The notes beneath the pieces were generated by a model. It had not been told where the DNA came from, ran no database searches, and saw only the letters and a list, made by a program, of their open reading frames with translations. DNA of 64,000 nucleotides, from assembly GCA_034687125.1 (NCBI GenBank), contig JAQGBZ010000222.1, positions 1-64,000 on the forward strand. Direction: 5' to 3'. The position numbers and the translations under genes were made by a program. Source of the stretch: Neelides folsomi (Eukaryota > Arthropoda > Collembola > Neelipleona > Neelidae). The first letter of the stretch is position 1; the number at the start of each line of letters is the position of its first letter. Below are positions 27,973 to 57,000 of the stretch, in pieces.

Positions 27973-29402
27973 ATGAGAAATTCACTCGTTCAAGATAAAG
28001 GAGCTCCTCAAAGAATACACCCTCAAGCTAACGAAAAGTATAATATAAATTCAACTAATTTATCAAAATCTAAATATCTAATCATATATACTTTAAATGA
28101 CATATTAAATGTTCAAAACTTTTTTTAAACCAAACATAAAATTTTTTCTTTGTAGCATAAGTGAAGCGGTGCATGAATGGAATATAAGGACAACTGAATC
28201 TAAATGGGATCGGTTTAAGTTTGAAACAACAGTGCTTCAATTTTCTTCTTTTAAAGTTGGTGAAGCTCAAATGGACTCTTTGTCAGCAGTAGTTAGAACC
28301 CGAGTGGGATACGATAGAATTAACTTTCTACCTTGGCAAGATTTCCAATCTTTATAATCAATTACCATTTAATTCCGCTAATTAATGATTTGATTCATTG
28401 TTGATTTGAACCTAATAAATAATTGACAATATTATTTTTAGTTGTGTAAAAAGAAAAGAATTAGTTGAAGCTGAGTTCGACCCCCTCAAGACTTCCTATA
28501 AAGAAATCCTATCCTCTTATATGAAATTTATTAAAAATGAGCCAAAAGTATAGTCCTTAAGTTTGTACTATTTTTAATTGTGATTCCTATTACACAGTCT
28601 TCCAACATTAACTTGTTATTTTATTAACTTTTAAAATAAATCAAGGAAATATGATTTTAATATTTCGCTTTATGTAATAGAAAGTAGGGAAAGTCCACAT
28701 CTTTGTAATGGATGAATACCAGTCCGAAATCGCTGAGGAATTTAAGAAGAATCTCAAGAATACCTGGGATGGAAATTTTGTCATTCACGAGGACTATTTA
28801 TTTCACAAGGCCAATGCGTAATTCTAATGTTTCATATTCATGTTCAATATCAATTGCTCTATATTTACTCTATGTACTTACATTTAGTTACTTCGCTCTT
28901 AATCTAACTACATACCAACTTAACTACTGTACTTACAAGCTTATAACTGATACTTACAATTTATAAATGGAAAAATATGTAGATATCTGAATAAGTTTAG
29001 ATCATAAAATCTCATTGTCTCAAATCAGTATATATTTATATATGATTTAGAACGAAGCAAAAATATTTTCTTCAAAAGAGTCCAACTCTGTTCAATTTGC
29101 TGAAAATTGATCCGAGTGATGATGAGTTTCTGTTTAAATCCCACATTGCTTGCCGATTAAACGCTTACTGTTATGGGCTCGGAAGTATCAACAAATTCAC
29201 GAAAGAACTGAATGCTAAAGGGGATCTACCAAAAGAAATCGTCAACGAAGTGATCATGATTTTTAGAACTTTCGAAAATCATGGCCAGGTCAGTGACGTT
29301 GTTGTTTCAAGTAGCGGCTCTTCCGGAAGTCTATATGGATCTAAAAAGACTTCAGCCGCCTCAGCTCATCAGGACATTCTCAAAGATTCCAATTACCATT
29401 GA
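27973..29402 (+). CDS. MsrA-family protein without the catalytic cysteine (putative pseudoenzyme)
   Basis: Five exons (27973-28037, 28156-28335, 28442-28547, 28681-28817, 29051-29402) give 279 residues. The protein aligns through its length with the selenocysteine MsrA at 36.8 kb: GEAQ...VVRTRVGY against PEAQ...VIRTKVGY, VEAEFDPLKTSYKE against VEIEFNPEKTSYGK, and HIACRLNAYCYGLGS against FVAARLNGYVGGYGS. Where MsrA has G-C-F-W (here S-U-F-W) it reads S-S-F-K: Ser53 replaces the catalytic residue and Lys55 the tryptophan. The GDHTE segment holding the family's active-site glutamate is replaced by CVKRKE. About 40 Ser-rich residues are added at the C-terminus. Methionine sulfoxide reduction is therefore unlikely; substrate binding or regulation is possible. 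The second intron uses a GC donor (TTG|GCAAGA) since no GT gives a usable junction. The intact frame over 840 nt argues for a functional gene, not a decaying copy. Confidence 0.82.
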
Positions 29403-30888
29403 AAGGAATGCAAGAGTAATATTTCCAGTATCGACTTTTTAATTCCCTCACCCTCTCTAACGACTATTATAAGTAATTTTTTCATATATTATATTATATG
29501 TTAACTTCGTTCGTAATTTCCTAATTGGATAGCCGATATTGACTTTTTAACCCACTGATAATATTCTACTTGTGAAAAATATCTCTTCAAGCTTTATATT
29601 TGTGTACTCTAATTATAATATTATGTTACAGAATAAATACTTTTGCCGTATTATTATTTAACATATACCTATTTTTACAATATAATTTATATACATTATA
29701 TTAATATAAACAGTAAACACTTTAAACTGTTTATTTTCATAATTACTCTATTTTAAACATTTATTTACTCATTTATTTCACTGGCATAGCTCATTGCATT
29801 GAAGGGAGTAAGAATATTTTTGATAAAGTTGGTTAACGAATGTCAAAGAATGAAAACATTCAAAGAAGAAATATTCAAAATAACATCAAATTCGTGCAAT
29901 ATAATGAAAATTAACGGTGAAATTATTAGCTTCTAGCTTGTATTCGGATTGAGGCCTTTGAGGTAGTTTTTTCAACCCGAATGAAGTAGATTGGCGTTGA
30001 TGCTTCAAAAACGTTTATTTAAACTGCTCGCATCTCAACTGGTGAGATATTTAACGCACATTAAGCTAAATGCTGATAAAGTGCAGATTGTTTGGATCCA
30101 CCTGGCGGGGATTTGTGATCAATCTTTCCACTACACAATAGTCTGCGAATGGCGTGTGGAAGGATTGAGCCAATGAAGTTCATTTCCCCTTAGCGCGTCT
30201 TCTCCCTCCCTCCAAATACACTTTGAAAGATTTGCCCTTCTCGCACCTCTTATCTCATTCAGTGCGTTTGGGTCGCTTGACGGAAACATTCTGACGGCCA
30301 TCTTTAATTTCACATCCGTTAATTGAAGAATTTAATTGGGCTTGTTCTTCTCATTCGTCGGATCTTCTTTAATTGGAAGTGACAGTTTAAACTCGTGTTG
30401 AAATACATGTGTTTTAAATAGGAAAGAGGGGAAAGGTGAAAAGATTTTTCATACTTTTCTTGCACACTTCGACACCGCATAGGAATATTATTTTAATTCA
30501 ATTACTACGATTTAATACTTCTTTAAAATTCTAAATTAAATATATTAATGTTTATATTGTACTAATTATGTTAATTACTAGTATTATATGATATAAATAA
30601 CTTAAAATATATTTTTTCATATATAAATATTTAAAAATTAATGACAAATGCTTTATTGATATATTACTTATATTATTTAAAATGCCGATTAATTTTATAA
30701 TAAAATTACAACACTAATGTACTATATTACTATATATAATATGCAATTGATATTAGATTATTACATAATATGATTCTGTATTTATTAATTCTTAAATAAG
30801 TATAATATAAACCCAAACACACTAAAAATTCATTTAATTTGTTAATTTAATTTATTTTAGAGTATCGGAGGAAGAGAGTCTGCTAAAT
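29403..30888. other. Intergenic with probable TIF1 promoter
   Basis: AT-rich, except about 30090-30310, which is relatively GC-rich. That segment includes a CCAAT box (GAGCCAATGAAG near 30165) and GACGGCCATCTTTAAT near 30295, resembling a YY1 site (GCCATCTT) as found at many metazoan start sites. A splice acceptor immediately before 30861 suggests that a 5' noncoding exon lies upstream. Promoter assignment is inference. No coding exon recognised here. Confidence 0.4.
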
Positions 30889-36834: not shown

Positions 36835-38153
36835 ATGCTAGCTGCGTTGAGGACACTGCTTTGCACTTCTCCCAAGTCCATCTTATCAAGTTCATCAGTA
36901 AGTAAAAATTATTAAAATTAAATGAAAATTTTCCATATTATGAAATATTTATTTTATCTTAAATACTTGGTTTTTGCTTTACTACAAATACACGAATCGT
37001 ATCTTTTGCATTAAGTTAATTTAATATCTTATAAGTGCATTTAAATATAAAATATTGAACAATCTCGGATTTAATTTTGTTTGTTTAGGTATATCCCTCG
37101 AATCTTCCAAATTTGAGAATGTCAATGTTGGAAGGAGACGAACAATTCGACGGATGGGTCGGAGAAAAGGCGACCTTCGGAATGTCCTGATTTTGGTTTC
37201 CCGAGGCGCAATTCGGTTGTGCCCCGGGGGTAATCCGCACCAAAGTCGGATATGCAGGAGGATCAACTGTGAACCCAACATACAAAAGAATGTTCGTTAT
37301 TTATGATAAATAATATACCCAACTTTTAAATGCACTAAAATTAAAGATGGGTATAAATTGTAATCCTATTTTCATCAGGGGCGATCATACAGAAAGTGTG
37401 GAAATCGAGTTCAACCCCGAGAAAACATCTTATGGTAAAATGTTGGACATGTTTTGGAAGAACCATAATCCATCTTCAAAATGTTCACGACAGGTAAATA
37501 TATTTATATATAATTATTTACACCTTCTACATTAAGTTCATTGAATTTGATAAGTTGTAATCTTGTATGTAAAATACAAGTGTGCAAACAGTGCGTTTTA
37601 CAGAATTTAATTTTGAGTATATTAGATAATGGATAATTGATAAAATTTATTTAATTTTAGTATATGTCAGCAATTTTCTATCACACTCCAGAGCAGAAAA
37701 AACAAGCTGAAGAATCCTTAAAAATTGAATCAAAGAAACGGAGTCAAAAGATAGAAACGAAAATACTTCCAATTGGCATATTCACCGATGCTGAAGAGTA
37801 AGTTGAACAAAACCCAACGTCAAATGCTATAACATTATCAGTAATTTATCATTATTATTCTACCAATTGGATTGATTTGGTATAAGTATAATCATAATGT
37901 TAATATTTCTATTTAAAGTTACCATCAAAAGTATCTTCTTCAACGTTATCCCTACATCTTGAACGAATTGGACGTTGAACCAGGGGATCAACTTAACAAC
38001 TCTTTTGTGGCAGCAAGACTCAATGGCTATGTTGGTGGTTACGGAAGTGTGAAAGCGTTTGAAACAGAAGTGGAGAATTTTCATCTTTCTACAAAGTTGG
38101 AACAATACGTGAAAAATATTGTTGTGAAAAAGAAACCCGACATTGATTGCTAA
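36835..38153 (+). CDS. MsrA: Peptide methionine sulfoxide reductase A, selenoprotein (in-frame TGA = Sec)
   Basis: Five exons (36835-36897, 37089-37291, 37379-37493, 37661-37797, 37919-38153) give 250 residues with one in-frame TGA at 37188-37190, codon 55. It falls exactly at the catalytic position: ATFGMS-[Sec]-FWFPEAQFG, where other MsrA proteins have GCFWG. Downstream sequence remains conserved: VIRTKVGYAGGS, NPTYKRMGDHTE (active-site glutamate), FWKNHNPS, YMSAIFYH, DAEDYHQKYLLQ, ARLNGYVGGYGS and a C-terminal Cys that could act as resolving residue. MsrA reduces methionine-S-sulfoxide in proteins, using thioredoxin; selenocysteine forms are known from green algae and some invertebrates and react faster. 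A start at MLAALRTLLCTSPKS gives a basic, Ser-rich presequence that could target mitochondria. A SECIS-like element lies at 38321-38400. A plain nonsense mutation cannot be excluded from DNA alone, but position, intact frame and SECIS make Sec much likelier. Confidence 0.9.
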
Positions 38154-38320
38154 CTTTAAGATCAAAAAGTTCAACAATTTATTCAAAACGAAAATGAAAA
38201 GCAAAAGCGTGATAAATCATTGTACGTCCAATCTGCTAAATCATCTTTAACAATATAGCATTATATCATAGTTTTAAAAAGTTTATCAATAGATAATAAT
38301 TTGCATCTCAATTCTTTTAA

Positions 38321-38400
38321 CATTGAAAGTTGTATTGTGACGCTTAAAAGGATAAACTTATAATGAGCCCCAATTGAGCTGATTTTGTTACACTTTCATG
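38321..38400 (+). promoter_or_regulatory. SECIS element (candidate, type II-like) in MsrA 3' UTR
   Basis: About 170 nt after the stop. Helix I pairs CATTGAAAGTTGTA (38321-38334) with TTACACTTTCATG (38388-38400) with small bulges. The core quartet is GTGA (38337-38340) opposite TGAT (38380-38383). Helix II pairs GCTTAA with TTGAGC, then GG with CC. An AAA (38354-38356) sits 13 nt after the quartet, and a mini-stem CTTA/TGAG above it would make this form II. GTGA rather than ATGA is a known minor variant. Spacing from quartet to AAA and from AAA to the 3' quartet fits eukaryotic SECIS geometry. I folded it by eye only. Confidence 0.75.
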
Positions 38401-38638
38401 TGAGCAACGAGATGATGATAAGATTCATTATATCTACCTTTTAATTTCTTATAATTTATATTGTATATGTACTATCATAAAAAATTTAAAATTATATGCA
38501 AACACTATGTGATTTATTAGTGATTTGTAGTATTTTAATTGAATTAACATTAACATATTATACATATAATGTAAGATATTAAAATGGATGCCATCAACTG
38601 TAAGCAATTTATCAATATATTTTATTAAATCAAATATA

Positions 38639-38714
38639 CAGGTTGGGCCATAAGTATCTTTCTTTTTTATACAATTGTTTATTTAAAAAATAAAGATACT
38701 TATGGTCCACTCTG
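38639..38714. mobile_element. 76-bp TIR pair (minimal Tc1/mariner-type MITE)
   Basis: The ends are inverted repeats: CAGGTTGGGCCATAAGTATC then TTT on the left; the reverse complement of the right end is CAGAGTGGACCATAAGTATC then TTT. TA dinucleotides flank both sides, as for Tc1/mariner insertions. Between the TIRs lie only about 30 nt, so this is an extreme internal deletion, or two TIRs that have come together. It follows the SECIS by about 240 nt and may lie in the MsrA 3' flank. Confidence 0.7.
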
Positions 38715-38808
38715 TAAATACTGACCAGCCTTTGTTGTTTGAAGATTCATTGCATTCTTTATCCATTTCTATCATGAAATGGCATACCTATTTATTATTA
38801 CTTATTAT

Positions 38809-39844
38809 CAGGCTTGTGAAGTTCATGCACGATAAACCGAGAAAATATGCACGAAAAAACCACGAAATATGCATACAAATATACGCTATCAAAATGTGGA
38901 ATTATATACAATATTTAATGAATATACATACATAAACTGATATTTACGTATGACTATATGTATACTGATAGTTAAATTCATATATGATAAATATAGAGTA
39001 CATTTCGCATCATCTATATGTAGGTATGTTTTTTAAAATGGATTGATCTAGCACAATTTTATTTGTATATTTTTCCAAAAGATTGCTTATTTTATTCCAA
39101 TCTTCGCTACTATAACATGGCTTCGAAAAATATCTTGATTAAATTGTTTTAGTTTTGTTTGTACATCTTTTTACAAGTTTTTAATATGAACATTAGTTTT
39201 AAGATAATCGAATAAATTTTTTTTGAAACTATACTGCTTGACATATAGGAATAAATAATAAAAAATTAATAATTAAAAATATTAAAGCCATATTCCACTC
39301 AACATTAGTATTTTATAATCTTGTATCAAAAATATTTTTTATTCATCATATGAAAAATGGCTTACCTCACAAAATATTAAATCTTTGTCAACTCTGAAAT
39401 ATTTTTTTATCTAATATTTTTGGAATCCAAGCTGTTAATGGACTAGATAGGTGTCATAATACTTAAAAGTTAAATTAAGACTCAAGAGATAATAATATCA
39501 ATTTATCAATAATATGTGAATTACGAGTAATCTTGACAAAGATAAGAGATAAAAATTATGATTTGTTTCATTATTTAAGTCAGTCCTTAGTTTTATTTAA
39601 AAAAATTTATTCGGAATTATACTATTATTGTTCGGAAATTGTTAAAAATACAAGAAATTGTTCGATAAAACTCTAAAATATGCAGATATATGCAAAATAT
39701 GCACAGAAACCCAAAATATGACAAAATATGCAAAAAAACTATGCGGATTTGAGGTCCTTGGGTCATGAAAGATGCCTAGCCAAAACCCGAGAGATCAATT
39801 CCTTATAATAAAAAACATGCAAATGCATGAACTTCACAAGCCTG
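38809..39844. mobile_element. Non-autonomous hAT-like DNA transposon with perfect 8-bp TSD
   Basis: Terminal inverted repeats CAGGCTTGTGAAGTTCATGC (left) and the matching reverse complement at 39824-39844 are flanked on both sides by CTTATTAT (38801-38808 and 39845-39852), an exact 8-bp target-site duplication. An 8-bp TSD with CAGG-type tips is the hAT signature. Subterminal AAATATGCA motifs are repeated near both ends, as expected for transposase-binding sites. The 1036-bp interior is AT-rich without transposase coding, so movement would need a helper element. The perfect TSD suggests a relatively recent insertion. Confidence 0.88.
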
Positions 39845-40166
39845 CTTATTATCCTACAATCACACAAATTATACAATTACATTACCTTTATCCGTACATG
39901 CCGTTATAATTATTGCATTACCTAAAGGGGTGCTGCTTTACATCAACCCTATAACTACCTTGACTAAATACAAAATAGTTAGGCAATTTATCATGAATCA
40001 ATTGTCAGTCTAAATTGCGCCCGCCAACTGCACTTTTACTCAAAGTCAATTCTCAATAATCAATTCAATTTCAACAACTTTGAAGTTTACAAAGTTCGGC
40101 TTCGGCTTCAGCCTGGTCTTCGGAGAATTCAATAATTTGAGTTCAAGACATTTCACATTATTTAAA

Positions 40167-41811
40167 ATGGATCTAGCTTCGATTAAACTTCAAATTACCA
40201 ATGCGGCCGGCAACTTATCAGGATCCCATAAAGATCAAGCTGAAAGATATAAATCCTTAATTGAGCAAATTGAGAATATTCCAAACCAAAATGACATTGC
40301 CGAGTGCCTTCAAAGTTTGGTTGATCAAAGTAAAAAAATACTAATTATACTTTTAATATTTATCATTTTGAAATCATCGTTTCTTAACAGGAAACTAATA
40401 TCAAAATATCTTAATATTTTAGTGGTCAATGAAAATGTTTCGCTCGTTGTGTCACGGATCATCCTTTCAGAAGTTGCAACTGTCCTTACGAAACTCTCAG
40501 ATGAAATTTCGAAAGCTGTTGCCCACTACACTCTGGATAAGGTAATGTCCAAATAAATACATAAAATTAGCTAAATGCTATTTTATGGGATAGTTAATTT
40601 TTAAACTTTGCTTTGCTAGGTCCAACCCAGAGTGATTTCCTTCGAAGAGCAAGTTGCAACAATTCGTCAGCACTTGTCAACTATTTATGAAAACCAACAA
40701 GCTTGGAAAGACGCAGCTGCCGTGTTAACTGGCATTCCTCTTGAAACCGGACAAAAGTATTAATAATACGAATTTTAAACATCGATTAATTAAATAATTT
40801 AAAGTCACCCTATATTAATATCATTCTTTAAGACAATATTCCGTTGATTACAAACTTGAGACTTATCTGAAGATTGCTCGCTTATATTTGGAAGATGACG
40901 ATGCAATCCAGGCAGAAGCGTATATTAACAGAGCTTCCTTGCTACAAGTAAGTCTTTAAAAGTATAAAACATCATCGTTCAATCTGAATTTTAATATTTT
41001 TTTAATTCAAAAGAACGAATCGAAAAATGAAAACTTGCAAGTTGTGTATAAAGTTTGCTATGCACGAGTGTTGGACAACAGAAGGAAATTCATTGAAGCT
41101 GCTCAGCGATACAACGAATTATCATACCGCCCAATTATCGCCGAAGAAGAAAGATTGACAGCTCTCAAAAACGCTCTCATTTGCACTGTCTTGGCTTCTG
41201 CTGGTCAGCAAAGAAGTCGAATGCTTGGAACTTTATTCAAAGATGAAAGGTGTCAAACTTTACCTGCGTTCAATATATTAGAGAAAATGTATTTAGAGAG
41301 AATCATCAGAAAATCAGAGCTGAAAGATTTTGAAAATATCCTCGTCTCCCATCAAAAGGCTAAAACTGCAGATGGTATATATTGATTAAATATCAATAAA
41401 AAATATGTTTATGAAATATAATATCATGAAATCAGCTATTTGTTTTTATTATATAGTCAAAAATTTTATTATCTTGTAGGTTCAACAATATTGGAAAGGG
41501 CCGTTGTTGAACACAATCTCCTTGCTGCGAGTAAACTGTATAACAATATTTTGTTCTCTGAACTTGGAGCTCTCCTCGAAATTCCCCAGACGAAAGCAGA
41601 AAAGATCGCATCACAGATGATAACAGAAGAAAGGATGTCAGGGCACATTGATCAAATTAAATCAATTGTTTACTTTGAAGCAAGGGAATGCCTTCCTTAT
41701 TGGGACAAGCAAATTCAATCTCTTTGCTACGACGTCAATAAAATTATCGAGAAAATTTCAGTCGTTGCTCCGGATTGGATTGCCAAATACAACGATGAAC
41801 AAATGAATTGA
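40167..41811 (+). CDS. COPS4: COP9 signalosome complex subunit 4
   Basis: Six exons (40167-40329, 40423-40542 region, 40620-40756, 40833-40947, 41014-41374, 41480-41811) join to 408 residues; human CSN4 has 406. Conservation is high: [50 protein letters not shown] read across a junction, [60 protein letters not shown], then [20 protein letters not shown] in the PCI domain, and [12 protein letters not shown]4 is a PCI scaffold subunit of the COP9 signalosome; it helps position CSN5/CSN6 and senses neddylated cullins, so the gene belongs to ubiquitin-ligase control. The start ATG gives [12 protein letters not shown]; no upstream in-frame ATG. Confidence 0.97.
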
Positions 41812-51000: not shown

Positions 51001-54000
51001 TTCCAGTTTGTTCAGCAAGAGGATCGAAAGGACTTGGAGGAACTGAAATGGTCCCTTTGAGTTCGGTTCCAATCCATGCTTGGATTTTGTATCCTTGATT
51101 GATTCCATTAATTTGTTGGGGATCTGGAGGCTTCCATGTTGCATGAAGGCATGTTGAATTGGTTGGGGAAGCTCGCACATTAGTTGGAGGTGAATTGGGA
51201 GTTCCTTCTCTGGTTTTGATTTTAATTCCAGGGGAATAAATTCCTATTCCTTTGTTGTTGTAGGCAGAGAGTTGAATTTCGTAATCCTTCCACGTAATAA
51301 GCTCTTGGATCAAATAATTCCTTTGAGCCTAGAAAAATATAATCAAAATAAATTATCTTTACGTATCTACAGAAGAAATTGTAATCGTAGTACAATAGTT
51401 TATTAACGATTATTTATACTACAAGGGTGTATTAAAAGGTTATGGATACATATTTTTTTTCTTTCCTGCTTGCATTAAAAATCTAGCTACACAATATTTT
51501 GATAATAGGTCCTCTATAAAAAATTCACAAAAAGTTTGGTGATCGTAAGTATCACCGAACCGAAATGGCAGACGAATTTGTCCGAAAAGAGCAGTTCAGG
51601 TTATAACTTTTTCGATAAACATAGCGTTTAATAGGGAAGTGTTGAGAAATGAAATTCGCGCGGTTTATCGAAATAGGTATAAACTGAACTGCTCTTTTCG
51701 GACAAATTCGTCTGCCATTTCGGTTCGGCGATACTTACGATCACCAAACTTTTTGTGAATTTTTTACAGAGGACCTATTATCAAAATATTGTGTAGCTAG
51801 ATTTTTAATGCAAGCAGGAAAGAAAAAATATGTATCCATATCATTTAATACGTCCTCATATAAATAAGAAAATCAAATGGGAATAAAGGGAAATGCATAA
51901 ATATTTATTGAATAATTACCTCATTAGTGATATTCCTGTAAGACCAAGGGCTATCGCCATAACCATGAAGCCTGTAGCGGATGATATATCCCAGAATCAT
52001 TCCATTTTTATGTTCATCTTGTGGAGGATGCCATTGGATTATAATTTGAGAAGGTGAACGAGCTGATCCAACTAATCCGATTGGAGGTCCAGAAGGCGCT
52101 AATATAAAAAAACAACTCATTGAACAAATTGACTTTGATGATGAACATGGAATTAAAAGATATTAAAATCTTAAAGTGTAGTATTTGCAAAGTGGGGCTT
52201 ACGTTCTTGTGGGAGTGTGACGATATTTGAGGGCTGGGAAGGTTCTCCCTCACCCACAGAATTCACAGCACTCACTCGAAATTGATAAGAAGCTGCCGGC
52301 TTGAGCCCATTAACAATAATTGATCTGAAATCAGAAGAGACGTTGGCAAGCAGAGTTTCCCAACCAGCCGGGCCCAAGTCCACTTGAATGCCTGAATCTG
52401 GAGTGACTGTTCGCTTCTGGATAATGTATTTGATAATCCCGCTATTCCCATCAAACCCGCTGGTCCAAGAAATATTCACAGCTTTTGAATTGGCTCCAGG
52501 GGCCAATGTCGGAAGCTTTTCTGAGCGAACATTTGTTGGCGGATATGGAAGCTCGATGATTTTCAACATAGCGACTCTTTCGTCGTGGCCGCCTTGGGAT
52601 TTAACAATACATTTGTATTGGCCAACATCGCTAGCTCGCACTTCCCTTATTTCCAACGTCCCATCAAGATGGATCAAAATTCTGCTCGAAACACCAGCAA
52701 CAATCATTCTGAAAATTATATTCGTTTTAGTGGCATTATCCATCATTATAATTAGTCAATTACTTTTAATATAAAAATTTATATTAAAAGTATATTTAAT
52801 ACTACTATTATAAGATTAGCAAAATTTACATAAGCTTAAATCCTTACTCATTATCATGTTCCCATTCAATATCATATTGCAAAGCGGGATCGCTGGAAAC
52901 TTTGCATTGGAGAGTTGCAACTTGTCCAAGAATGACTTGTGTATCCGCAGGTGGTTGAATAATTTGGGTTCGTACAAGGATTGTAATATGACCGGACCCA
53001 ATGACAGTCCCAGCAATATTTGCTCTAATGCAGGTGTAATGCCCAGCGTCTCTTGCTCGAACAGCAGCAATTAGCAAACTCCCTGTGTCAAGTATTTGGA
53101 ACCGACCGGATGAAAGCACTTCTTCAGTTTCTGTATTTCCAATATAAAAATTAGCACTTTCTGGTTAATTGCAAAACCCCACGACTTTGACTTACCATTT
53201 CTGTACCAAGTTATGTTTGGCAGCGGAGCTCCGCCGACTTCACAAAAGATTGTAACGTCGTTGCCTTCCAAGACAGTTTTATTCTCAGGCCCTTTGACCA
53301 TAATTGGTGCAGAAGCTAAGGATAAATTAAGTTCAATTAATTAAAAGTATTTGAACAGGTGTGATTCTTCCGGGGTGCATTGAAGGCAATAAATCAAGTA
53401 GTGTTGTAAAGTGGACAAAAATGCGTGCAAACATTGAAATATGATTTCAATATACTTGGTGAGTTCAATTTCGAACATAATTCATTAATAATTACATTTA
53501 AAATTTTAAATACCCATTTAGTGAAATTATCTGTGCAAATACAATACTAGTTCATCCAATACTGTTTGATGTGTTTTTGATAAAAATCAAAATTAACAAC
53601 TTCTATCATTAATTAATGAGGATTAAAATTCTTAGTCAAAAATTCACAAACTTGTACGTGAGAAAGATTAAAAGCGCAAAAACAAAAAAAAACTTTTTGT
53701 ACTAGAGACGTTGTGCTTATCATACAATTCTAGAGTTTACCATTAACAGGTTTGGCCATTAGAAGATCGTTTAATGTAATTTTGCCAACTTTAGTCAGAT
53801 TGGAGCTGAAATTGGCATTCCTCTTTCTTTGAAAAAGTAGATCTGAAATGTTCATTACTTTCATATATTCAATTTTACATGAAATGCCTCCGAATGCCGT
53901 ATACGTAAACAATGTTGGAAAATGAACATGCCTTTCAATTTCAGCAAACAATGCTTTTGTTTTACATTTACTGCTAATAAGGAAATTATTTTTGTATATG

Positions 54001-57000
54001 TTGAAAAATCCTTTATCCCATAAATCCCCGATTTAAATATGTACATTGTAATAAATGAAGTTAATAATTGCATTGTTATAAAGTTATTAAAAACATATGA
54101 AATAGACAATTAGCTAATATTTGACAAAAATATTTACAACATGAATATTAACAAATTCGACAAGTAAGCATTTTACCTACATATACTAAATTATTTACAA
54201 TATTTACAGTTTTCTCATTTATAAAATATTTTTCAATGAATAAATTTGCCATTGAAGATCAATTTATTATAAAGTTGAAGATTGAATTTTAATCAATCTG
54301 AACATATTTTGATTTATAGACAACGTAAAGTTAAGGAAGAAATTGAAATTCACTTACTTTTCACGCGAAGCCAGGTGTAAATGTTGGATTCGCCAGCGGT
54401 GTTTGAGGCCCAGCATTGATACATTCCAGCATCTTGAGCACGAAGGTATTGAATAGTAATTGATCCAGTCTCTTTATCAAATATATATCCTGGAAGTCCA
54501 TCGATCCCTGTTGTATCCTTGTACCAAGTTACATTGGGTTTCGGGACTCCGCTGACTTGACAATTTATCGTTATCTCTTTCCCAAATTCTCCAAATGTTT
54601 CAACTGGAAGCGTTTGTTGAAAGTGCGGTTTTTCTATACAAGTTAAAAGGATATTTAGATTCCCAAATTCTTAAATACTAATTCACGAAATTCACGATGA
54701 CATTCTTGCTACTTACTTACATTTACTTAACTTATAGACTTTATCAAAGCCAATTGGCTATGACATTAACATTGATGTCTAAGTCTATGAACATTTATAG
54801 TAAAAAAAATAGAAAAAAGTGTAAAAACTTCCAAGAGCTCTTTAAATGTAAATTAAATATATAAAAAATTATTAATTAAAATATGTAATTACCAAAAACG
54901 GTGATTTTGGCCGACGCGGATTGAACAGGATAAATTGAATTTCTGAGCCTCGCTTGGCAAGTGTATTCTCCAGCATAATTTGAATCCACTTTAAGAAGAG
55001 AAAGCGTCCGATTCCAAAGGTCATTAAAAGACGTGTGAATTCCCGAAGTCTCGACCGGAATTCCATCCTTCAGCCAAATCGTCTCAAGTTCATGCAGTGG
55101 CCTGGCATTGGCAATACATTGAAGCTCATATTCATTCTGTCCCTTGACAATTTGAGCATCTTTGGGCGGGATGATGATTGAAGGTGCAAGTTGTTCAGGC
55201 GGATTTTCCCCAGCATTTGCCACCACCACGTGGATGTAGCCAGAATTCTCCTCGATGGCCAGTTGAGTGTTGGTGGCTCGGGCTCGATACGCCTTCTGGT
55301 CACCCGCATTCACGTCCAAAATAATTTGCTTATGGTCAGACGTGGTGGCGAATTTGCTTCCATACAAAATGGATTGGTCTCTCGCTTGCCAAAGGACGGA
55401 GGGACTCGGATAGCTTTGAATTGGCGGAAGGTCCAACACGGCCGCTTCCCCCATTCTCACAACGACAGTTTTATCGTTCTGGTTTTCAAACGGTGTCATG
55501 ACTGAAACAATGATTCATTTAAACTTTTAATTCAATTTCACCGCAAACTTATCCACAAATAATTATAAGATAAATTATTTGCTCGTTCGAGAAGAAATGT
55601 TTGATTGAGTATTGTATTGTGTACTCTACATAAGTATGTATTGTTCTAATTGCATTATACAGGATGGGAACTTGATATAAACTCAATTCTATAAATCGTC
55701 TAGGTGGTCCTTCTATGGGGAATAGCAGGAAAGTAATTAGCCGGGATGTCTTTCATAAACACATATACACGTTGATACTTTCAATTTTTTCAAATTAACA
55801 AAATGGGGCCTAAAATTGATTCGAAAGTCGAAGGGTTAGTTTTAGGATTTGACAAATCTGGCTAGTCATAGGGGAATAGTTGAGTTACTACAATTGAGAG
55901 GGTGTAAGAGTGAATTTGCAGTCACAATAGATAAGGCTCTTTTTGGAATGCAGGATTATGAAGGTGAGAGGCGAGTGTGCTATTGCGAAATTGGCAAAAA
56001 ATTGCCAGAAGATTGGGTTTATTTCAAAAAAGAACGGTTAGGGAAAACATTTATGATTGTAGGCGCAATGAACGGAAGAGGACCGCTTCCACTCATTAAA
56101 GTCCCTATGAAGACAAAAGTGAATCAGGACTTTTACATTGATTTTGTTTTGAAACCATTGTTGGAAGCTTAAACTCTATACGAGAAATGAGATGAAGAGA
56201 ATTTTTGTCCACCATGATGCAGCAACATCACATACAGGTTCAAAAACTCAAGCTTACTCTAAAGACCTGAAACGAAGATTGGGAATTACAATCATCCCAA
56301 ATAATGAAATCCCAATCAAATCTCCTGACATCTCACCACTTGATTTCTTTGGTTTCGGATTCCTTAAGCAGCGGTTGTGGAAACGGCGGGCAAAATCTCT
56401 CGACGGAGTTTGGAAATGCCTCAAACAAAAATGGGCCAAACTTGATATAAATATGGCAAAAAGACTGTATGAATCTTGGAAACGGAGGTGTCAAATGGTC
56501 ACTCGTATGAAAGGACAACATTGAAAATCTACGCGACATTCATTCACGTCCAATTCGATTAAAACAATCAAATAAAAAATGAGTTTATATGAAGTTCCCG
56601 GCTTTTGTAGTTCATTATACTTATGTAAATGAAATGTTTCTAAAATGTTTCTAAAAGATTAAAAAAAATTACTAAAGTTAAATAAAAAAGAAATTACGTA
56701 ACAATCTTAACGGATACAAAATCTATTTTTAAAGTAAAAATAAAGGTTTCTCCGACTAGAATGGAGGGATTTAAACTGAATTTTCTAACAACGTTCTTCA
56801 CTTCAATATTATGTATTAAGTGGACCGAAATGGACCCCGATAAGTTAATCCCTGAAGGTTTTCTCTAAAATATTCTACAATATGAATTTTATTTACATTG
56901 AAAACTTTTAAATCTATTCTAAAATACTTAAATCTCCATTCTTAAATTGAATTGATAGCTCAAATGTCAAAGGATGCTTACACAATATGGTTCAACGAAC

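Follow-up and report, generated by a model that had tools for sequence, protein, structure and literature searches.

Does the single in-frame TGA within a gene for methionine sulfoxide reductase A (MsrA), located at 36835-38153 (+), end the protein prematurely, or does it specify selenocysteine (Sec) at the catalytic position? The gene lies in a window of 64,000 nucleotides, i.e., the whole stretch of DNA that was analysed, and its initial annotation had proposed a functional selenoprotein. On the evidence assembled here, drawn from sequence comparison, this reading is very probably correct, with Sec predicted at codon 55. The coordinates of the features discussed are collected in Table 1.

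Table 1. Positions of the Sec-MsrA gene model, its candidate SECIS element, and the MsrA-like paralogue in the window.
Feature	Position	Strand	Remarks
MsrA exon 1	36835-36897	+	ATG start, GT donor, phase compatible with exon 2
MsrA exon 2	37089-37291	+	Active site, predicted FGMS-U-FWFPE
MsrA exon 3	37379-37493	+	
MsrA exon 4	37661-37797	+	
MsrA exon 5	37919-38153	+	C-terminal helical domain (PF20939) and TAA stop
In-frame TGA, codon 55	37188-37190	+	Predicted selenocysteine at the catalytic position
Candidate SECIS	38322-38402	+	Presumed 3' UTR; own scan, folding, shuffles
MsrA-like paralogue	27973-29402	+	Exons 27973-28037, 28156-28335, 28442-28547, 28681-28817, 29051-29402

Gene Structure and Catalytic Position

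The initial annotation described one TGA in an otherwise intact five-exon MsrA frame, followed by 195 codons, and both statements are borne out by the gene model. The coding sequence of 753 nt (251 codons including the stop) is interrupted only at codon 55, by the TGA, before it closes with TAA at codon 251, and a count of the codons between the two stops gives 195; all four introns are GT-AG, with the donor of intron 2, GTTCGTTA, being weak beyond its GT. Apart from the TGA, which stands in the context FGMS-TGA-FWFPE, the frame is free of lesions such as a frameshift or a second premature stop. In Pfam, the predicted protein matches PMSR at residues 48-181 (1.5e-37, 129.6 bits; curated cut-off, 23.7) and MsrA_helical at residues 197-241 (3.8e-15, 55.9 bits; curated cut-off, 23.7), the latter family being described there as 'Selenoprotein methionine sulfoxide reductase A, helical domain'. 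The N-terminus is basic and Ser-rich and, by this composition, could be a mitochondrial presequence.

The best PDB matches of the protein are chains of Clostridium oremlandii MsrA (CoMsrA; 4lwk, 3.4e-43), in which residue 16 is the catalytic residue according to the excerpted text of PMC4333827. Codon 55 aligns with this residue, so that the earlier placement of the TGA at the codon of the catalytic Cys stands. Among eleven active-site positions of CoMsrA, eight are kept by the gene, TGA occupies position 16, and two glycines are changed; the pocket residues F17, W18, Y47, E55, Q89, Y90, H137, and Y140 (CoMsrA numbering) are retained without exception (8/8). In the GCFWG motif, Ser54 and Phe58 take the place of the two glycines, which is a point against the reading; in 12 bacterial relatives, the first is Gly throughout, and the second is Gly in nine and Thr in three, and because the second one varies inside the branch, these glycines are not treated as branch-defining. 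The odds that a random stop would fall on codon 55 can be put at about 1 in 250, and these odds, together with the lack of any other lesion and the presence of TGA in all 12 readable relatives, make the position of the TGA more than a matter of chance.

CoMsrA (PDB 4lwj, 4lwk, 4lwm) is described in the literature excerpts consulted as a native selenoprotein of Clostridium (Alkaliphilus) oremlandii, with a Sec form 20-fold more active than the Cys form. It resembles the gene under study in its catalytic and helical domains, in Sec at the aligned position, as predicted here, and in its pocket residues. However, it is a bacterial protein, characterized in the excerpt of PMC4333827 as being without any Cys residue, whereas the gene in the window is split by introns, contains four Cys codons, and encodes a protein extended at its N-terminus; furthermore, the motif GCFWG of the Cys-version proteins contrasts with S-U-FWF here.

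The remainder of the window contains Pfam neighbours that include IFT121/WDR35, CSN4, a PHD finger, a PH domain, and Ig/FN3 exons, a set that would fit an animal but is no more specific than that. Two long inverted repeats were also recorded: one at 51452-51831 (169-nt arms, 96% complementary, 42 nt between them), where the Ig/FN3 exons lie, and the other at 1359-1965 (124-nt arms, 94% complementary), whose arms overlap 15- and 30/31-nt tandem units. At 55846-56524 (+), a stretch resembles, by eye, a mariner transposase broken across two frames, neither piece of which has a match in Pfam.

The Catalytic Codon in Related Loci

Relatives of the gene were gathered from one scan of prokaryote genomes, which yielded 32 loci, and one scan of viral contigs, which yielded a single locus (a Cys-MsrA). 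Searches with PF20939 covered 391, 71, 22, 289, and 377 genomes in overlapping sets, which were taken from the classes, order, and phylum to which hand-picked genomes belong and thus form an uneven prokaryote sample; nine different loci exceeded the cut-off (L034, L035, L043-L049). In a first reading of the codon aligned with codon 55, covering 35 loci, 30 loci had TGT or TGC and five had TGA, these five being loci of the branch to which the gene belongs. A second reading took in 13 loci, one of which (L042) is under the PF20939 cut-off and has no MsrA match; the codon was TGA in each of the 12 loci with such a match. The 12 TGA loci, all of which are bacterial, consist of the nine loci over the PF20939 cut-off plus L003, L013, and L030. 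Since the stretch selected by PF20939 sits far downstream of the codon, these searches should not favour TGA. In the genomes of L020, L003, L013, and L030, PF20939 was found in none of the four; hence, L003, L013, and L030 are TGA-bearing MsrAs without a match to PF20939 at the C-terminus. The latter three loci derive from MAGs titled Deltaproteobacteria, Polyangia, and uncultured proteobacterium, and their TGA is set in G-U-FWGPD.

The ordinary Cys-MsrAs (29 prokaryote loci and the viral-contig locus) share the PMSR domain and the FW motif with the protein of the window but differ from it in the TGT or TGC at the catalytic codon, and their alignment to it stops at residues 178-184, short of the helical domain. 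As for the decoding apparatus, tRNA-Sec was found over the Rfam cut-off in all five genomes tested among the 12 that hold TGA loci, and also in five of 14 control genomes; only matches over the cut-off are counted, because weaker ones occur in all 14 controls.

An unrooted tree was built from 44 rows (45 were given, and L035_Cys, an artefact row of 14 residues taken from the wrong strand, was left out, whereas the true L035 row, with TGA, was included), with the column of the catalytic codon masked; its rows are bacterial loci, the viral-contig locus, and the two MsrA-type genes of the window, the only eukaryotic entries. A split supported at 100/99 separates 30 Cys rows from 13 TGA rows, the protein of the window included, together with a Ser paralogue described below. 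By path length, the nearest rows to the protein of the window are the bacterial Sec-MsrAs with PF20939, and the fork uniting both genes of the window with these rows has weaker support (84/84). L003, L013, and L030 form a sub-branch of their own (100/100) and have an odd letter make-up. In plain identity, the best single match of the protein is a Cys form, L001 (47% over 139 columns), which the tree nevertheless puts on the opposite side.

The comparison bears most directly on the rival that survives best, namely, that the gene is a Cys-MsrA whose TGC or TGT reads as TGA through erroneous sequencing or a new nonsense mutation. The analysis covered a single record of the locus, and TGA is only one base away from either Cys codon; yet the tree, with the codon itself masked, groups the protein with TGA-bearing relatives and not with Cys forms, the codon is TGA in 12/12 readable relatives, and a SECIS-like hairpin follows downstream, such that an error or a new mutation is very improbable.

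The Candidate SECIS Element

The core of this hairpin starts 184 nt beyond the MsrA stop codon and comprises GTGA (38337-38340), AAA (38354-38356, 13 nt after GTGA), and TGAT (38380-38383). The core is flanked by a lower and an upper helix, and a further small helix at the apex gives the element a form-2-like shape. Folding without constraints yields the same main helices. The score of the upper and lower helix, -16.8, was reached in 0/1000 dinucleotide shuffles of 38154-38640 and in 0/1000 of 38154-39154, in a post hoc test whose threshold was the candidate's own score; against the candidate, the total energy of the hairpin is ordinary (z -1.03), with 33 of 200 shuffles folding at least as well.

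A scan of our own over the whole window and both strands gave 55 SECIS-like candidates, four of which score above that at 38337, and a stricter scan of the window gave 18, with one better; simple arithmetic from these scans leads to a chance expectation of about 0.008 to 0.02 such candidates per 487 nt. Rfam reported no SECIS in the whole window, in the MsrA gene region with permissive filters, or in the hairpin alone. In the first scan downstream of the gene (38154-40100), eight rows fell on two sites, 38337 and 39718, and the latter was dropped with its much weaker upper helix (-1.6 vs -6.0 at 38337). A relaxed scan extended to 41900 gave 13 candidates, among which those at 40632 and 41155 outscore 38337; both fall where the CSN4-like gene lies downstream (by Pfam, with the coding nature of 40632 judged by eye), which leaves the hairpin at 38337 as the top candidate of the presumed UTR. 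Past the candidate, a near-palindrome occupies 38634-38719 (41-nt arms, 83% complementary, 4 nt between them), which by eye resembles a small mariner-type MITE and has sub-threshold microRNA matches in Rfam.

The core patterns AUGA_AA and GUGA_AA are used as described in the excerpt of PMC3473315, according to which GUGA_AA cores are common in some green algae and make up 12 of 21 sponge SECIS elements, while the other invertebrate elements are almost all AUGA. The hairpin is, therefore, either an unusual animal SECIS or the wrong element.

The Serine Paralogue

About 7.4 kb upstream of the Sec-MsrA gene lies an MsrA-like paralogue that matches MsrA_helical (5.2e-06) and falls just below the cut-off for PMSR (9.8e-05; 23.1 vs 23.7 bits). 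The two proteins are identical at 62 of 195 aligned residues, and the genes share three of four intron phases (2, 0, 2), the first intron being the one that differs; intron 2 of the paralogue was modelled as GC-AG, which was picked to preserve frame and phase. In the paralogue, Ser stands at the catalytic position, and the pocket residues W18, Y47, Q89, Y90, and H137 have become K, V, V, H, and K, respectively, with F17, E55, and Y140 retained. Because of this Ser and the loss of five of the eight pocket residues, the paralogue is probably non-catalytic; the best reading makes it either a paralogue without catalytic function or a duplicate that is ageing. Its place in the tree is unsure because its branch is very long (2.12). 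A plant MsrA5-like Ser form may be a parallel; among the papers listed by a literature search for a non-catalytic MsrA paralogue, none dealt with one, as judged by titles and the first lines of abstracts, a result that does not prove absence. About 700 nt past the stop of the paralogue, at 30115 (+), there is a strong GTGA...TGAG hairpin with a SECIS-like score, in which CC replaces AA and which could be a remnant or a product of chance.

A degenerate relative in the same window would accord with a second rival, in which the Sec-MsrA gene itself only recently turned into a pseudogene, in a lineage where Sec decoding is already gone or is on its way out, and the excerpt of PMC5330540 does report the loss of selenoproteins in some arthropods. 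Such decay is at odds with a gene that has no frameshift and no second premature stop, with splice dinucleotides that are all intact, and with the retained pocket residues; this rival is accordingly rated as still more improbable than an error. The weakest proposal, that UGA encodes an ordinary amino acid in a variant genetic code or is a plain stop that is read through, is scarcely credible, for although a code with TGA = Cys could equally account for one TGA at a Cys position, Cys is otherwise written as TGT or TGC (two and two in the MsrA gene; 18 and 15 in the 2161 codons of nine other stretches, which were chosen stop-free, for which reason their lack of TGA carries no weight), and the model of the paralogue terminates in TGA.

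Proposed Mechanism

The reading as a functional selenoprotein is thus upheld by the intact spliced frame, the full set of pocket residues, the TGA of the readable relatives, and the candidate SECIS. The mechanism that it would entail, from SECIS recoding to selenolate chemistry, is taken from established knowledge. The hairpin, acting as a SECIS, would recruit SBP2, eEFSec, and Sec-tRNA, and the ribosome would insert Sec at the UGA of codon 55. The selenolate at this position would then attack the S-sulfoxide of an oxidised methionine to give a selenenic acid, which may be recycled via glutaredoxin, thioredoxin, or the protein's own Cys residues, with C65, C124, and C250 being candidates by position only. 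In a wider sense, established knowledge suggests that the lineage would keep the full Sec machinery, as the initial annotation had also supposed; ARAGORN found no tRNA gene in the 64-kb window. A bolder combination, which is conceivable but rather doubtful, holds that the SECIS truly has a GUGA core, with an SBP2 that accepts the algal or sponge type, and that the duplicate 7.4 kb away has exchanged Sec for Ser and become a non-catalytic partner or regulator.

Relation to Known Sec-MsrAs

Sec-MsrAs are reported for the centipede Strigamia maritima, Daphnia pulex, Ixodes scapularis, and Branchiostoma floridae in the excerpt of PMC4244043, and for five of six marine invertebrates in that of PMC3473315. 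These MsrAs with Sec from non-insect arthropods and other invertebrates, including those of Amphimedon, Trichoplax, Nematostella, and Capitella (PMC4244043, PMC3473315, in the parts consulted), are among the closest known counterparts of the present gene, which would be their ortholog; in Strigamia, a SECIS is described downstream of every selenoprotein gene (PMC4244043, PMC3473315). The difference lies in the SECIS, which outside sponges is nearly always AUGA in the account of PMC3473315, as opposed to the GUGA candidate here. Among other eukaryotes, the excerpt of PMC2375036 places Sec-MsrA in two Ostreococcus species and a diatom, and the Sec-MsrAs of Chlamydomonas and Ostreococcus are likened to the gene by description, as eukaryotic forms from organisms in which the GUGA_AA SECIS is common (PMC2375036, PMC3473315). 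By eye, the putative mariner relic and the base composition (32% G+C) are reminiscent of caligid copepods, at the level of a guess; for Lepeophtheirus salmonis, two tRNA-Sec candidates and 17 selenoproteins are listed in the excerpt of PMC5330540.

Since Sec-MsrA has been published for invertebrates and algae, the gene is a further case of a known kind, to which it adds a member; what is new is the SECIS-like hairpin as a candidate element. The finding would be less expected in an insect. Annotation pipelines that treat every TGA as a stop would either break off the translation at codon 54 or report a pseudogene. The Ser paralogue, for its part, may be a duplicate of a selenoenzyme that lost Sec without keeping the activity of a Cys form. 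For the family as a whole, the Sec-MsrA branch gains a eukaryotic and very probably animal member, for which a complete gene model and a candidate SECIS are given, and the association of the helical-type branch with the Sec codon (12/12 readable loci, vs 0/30 on the opposite side) suggests a cheap rule by which Sec-MsrAs may be spotted.
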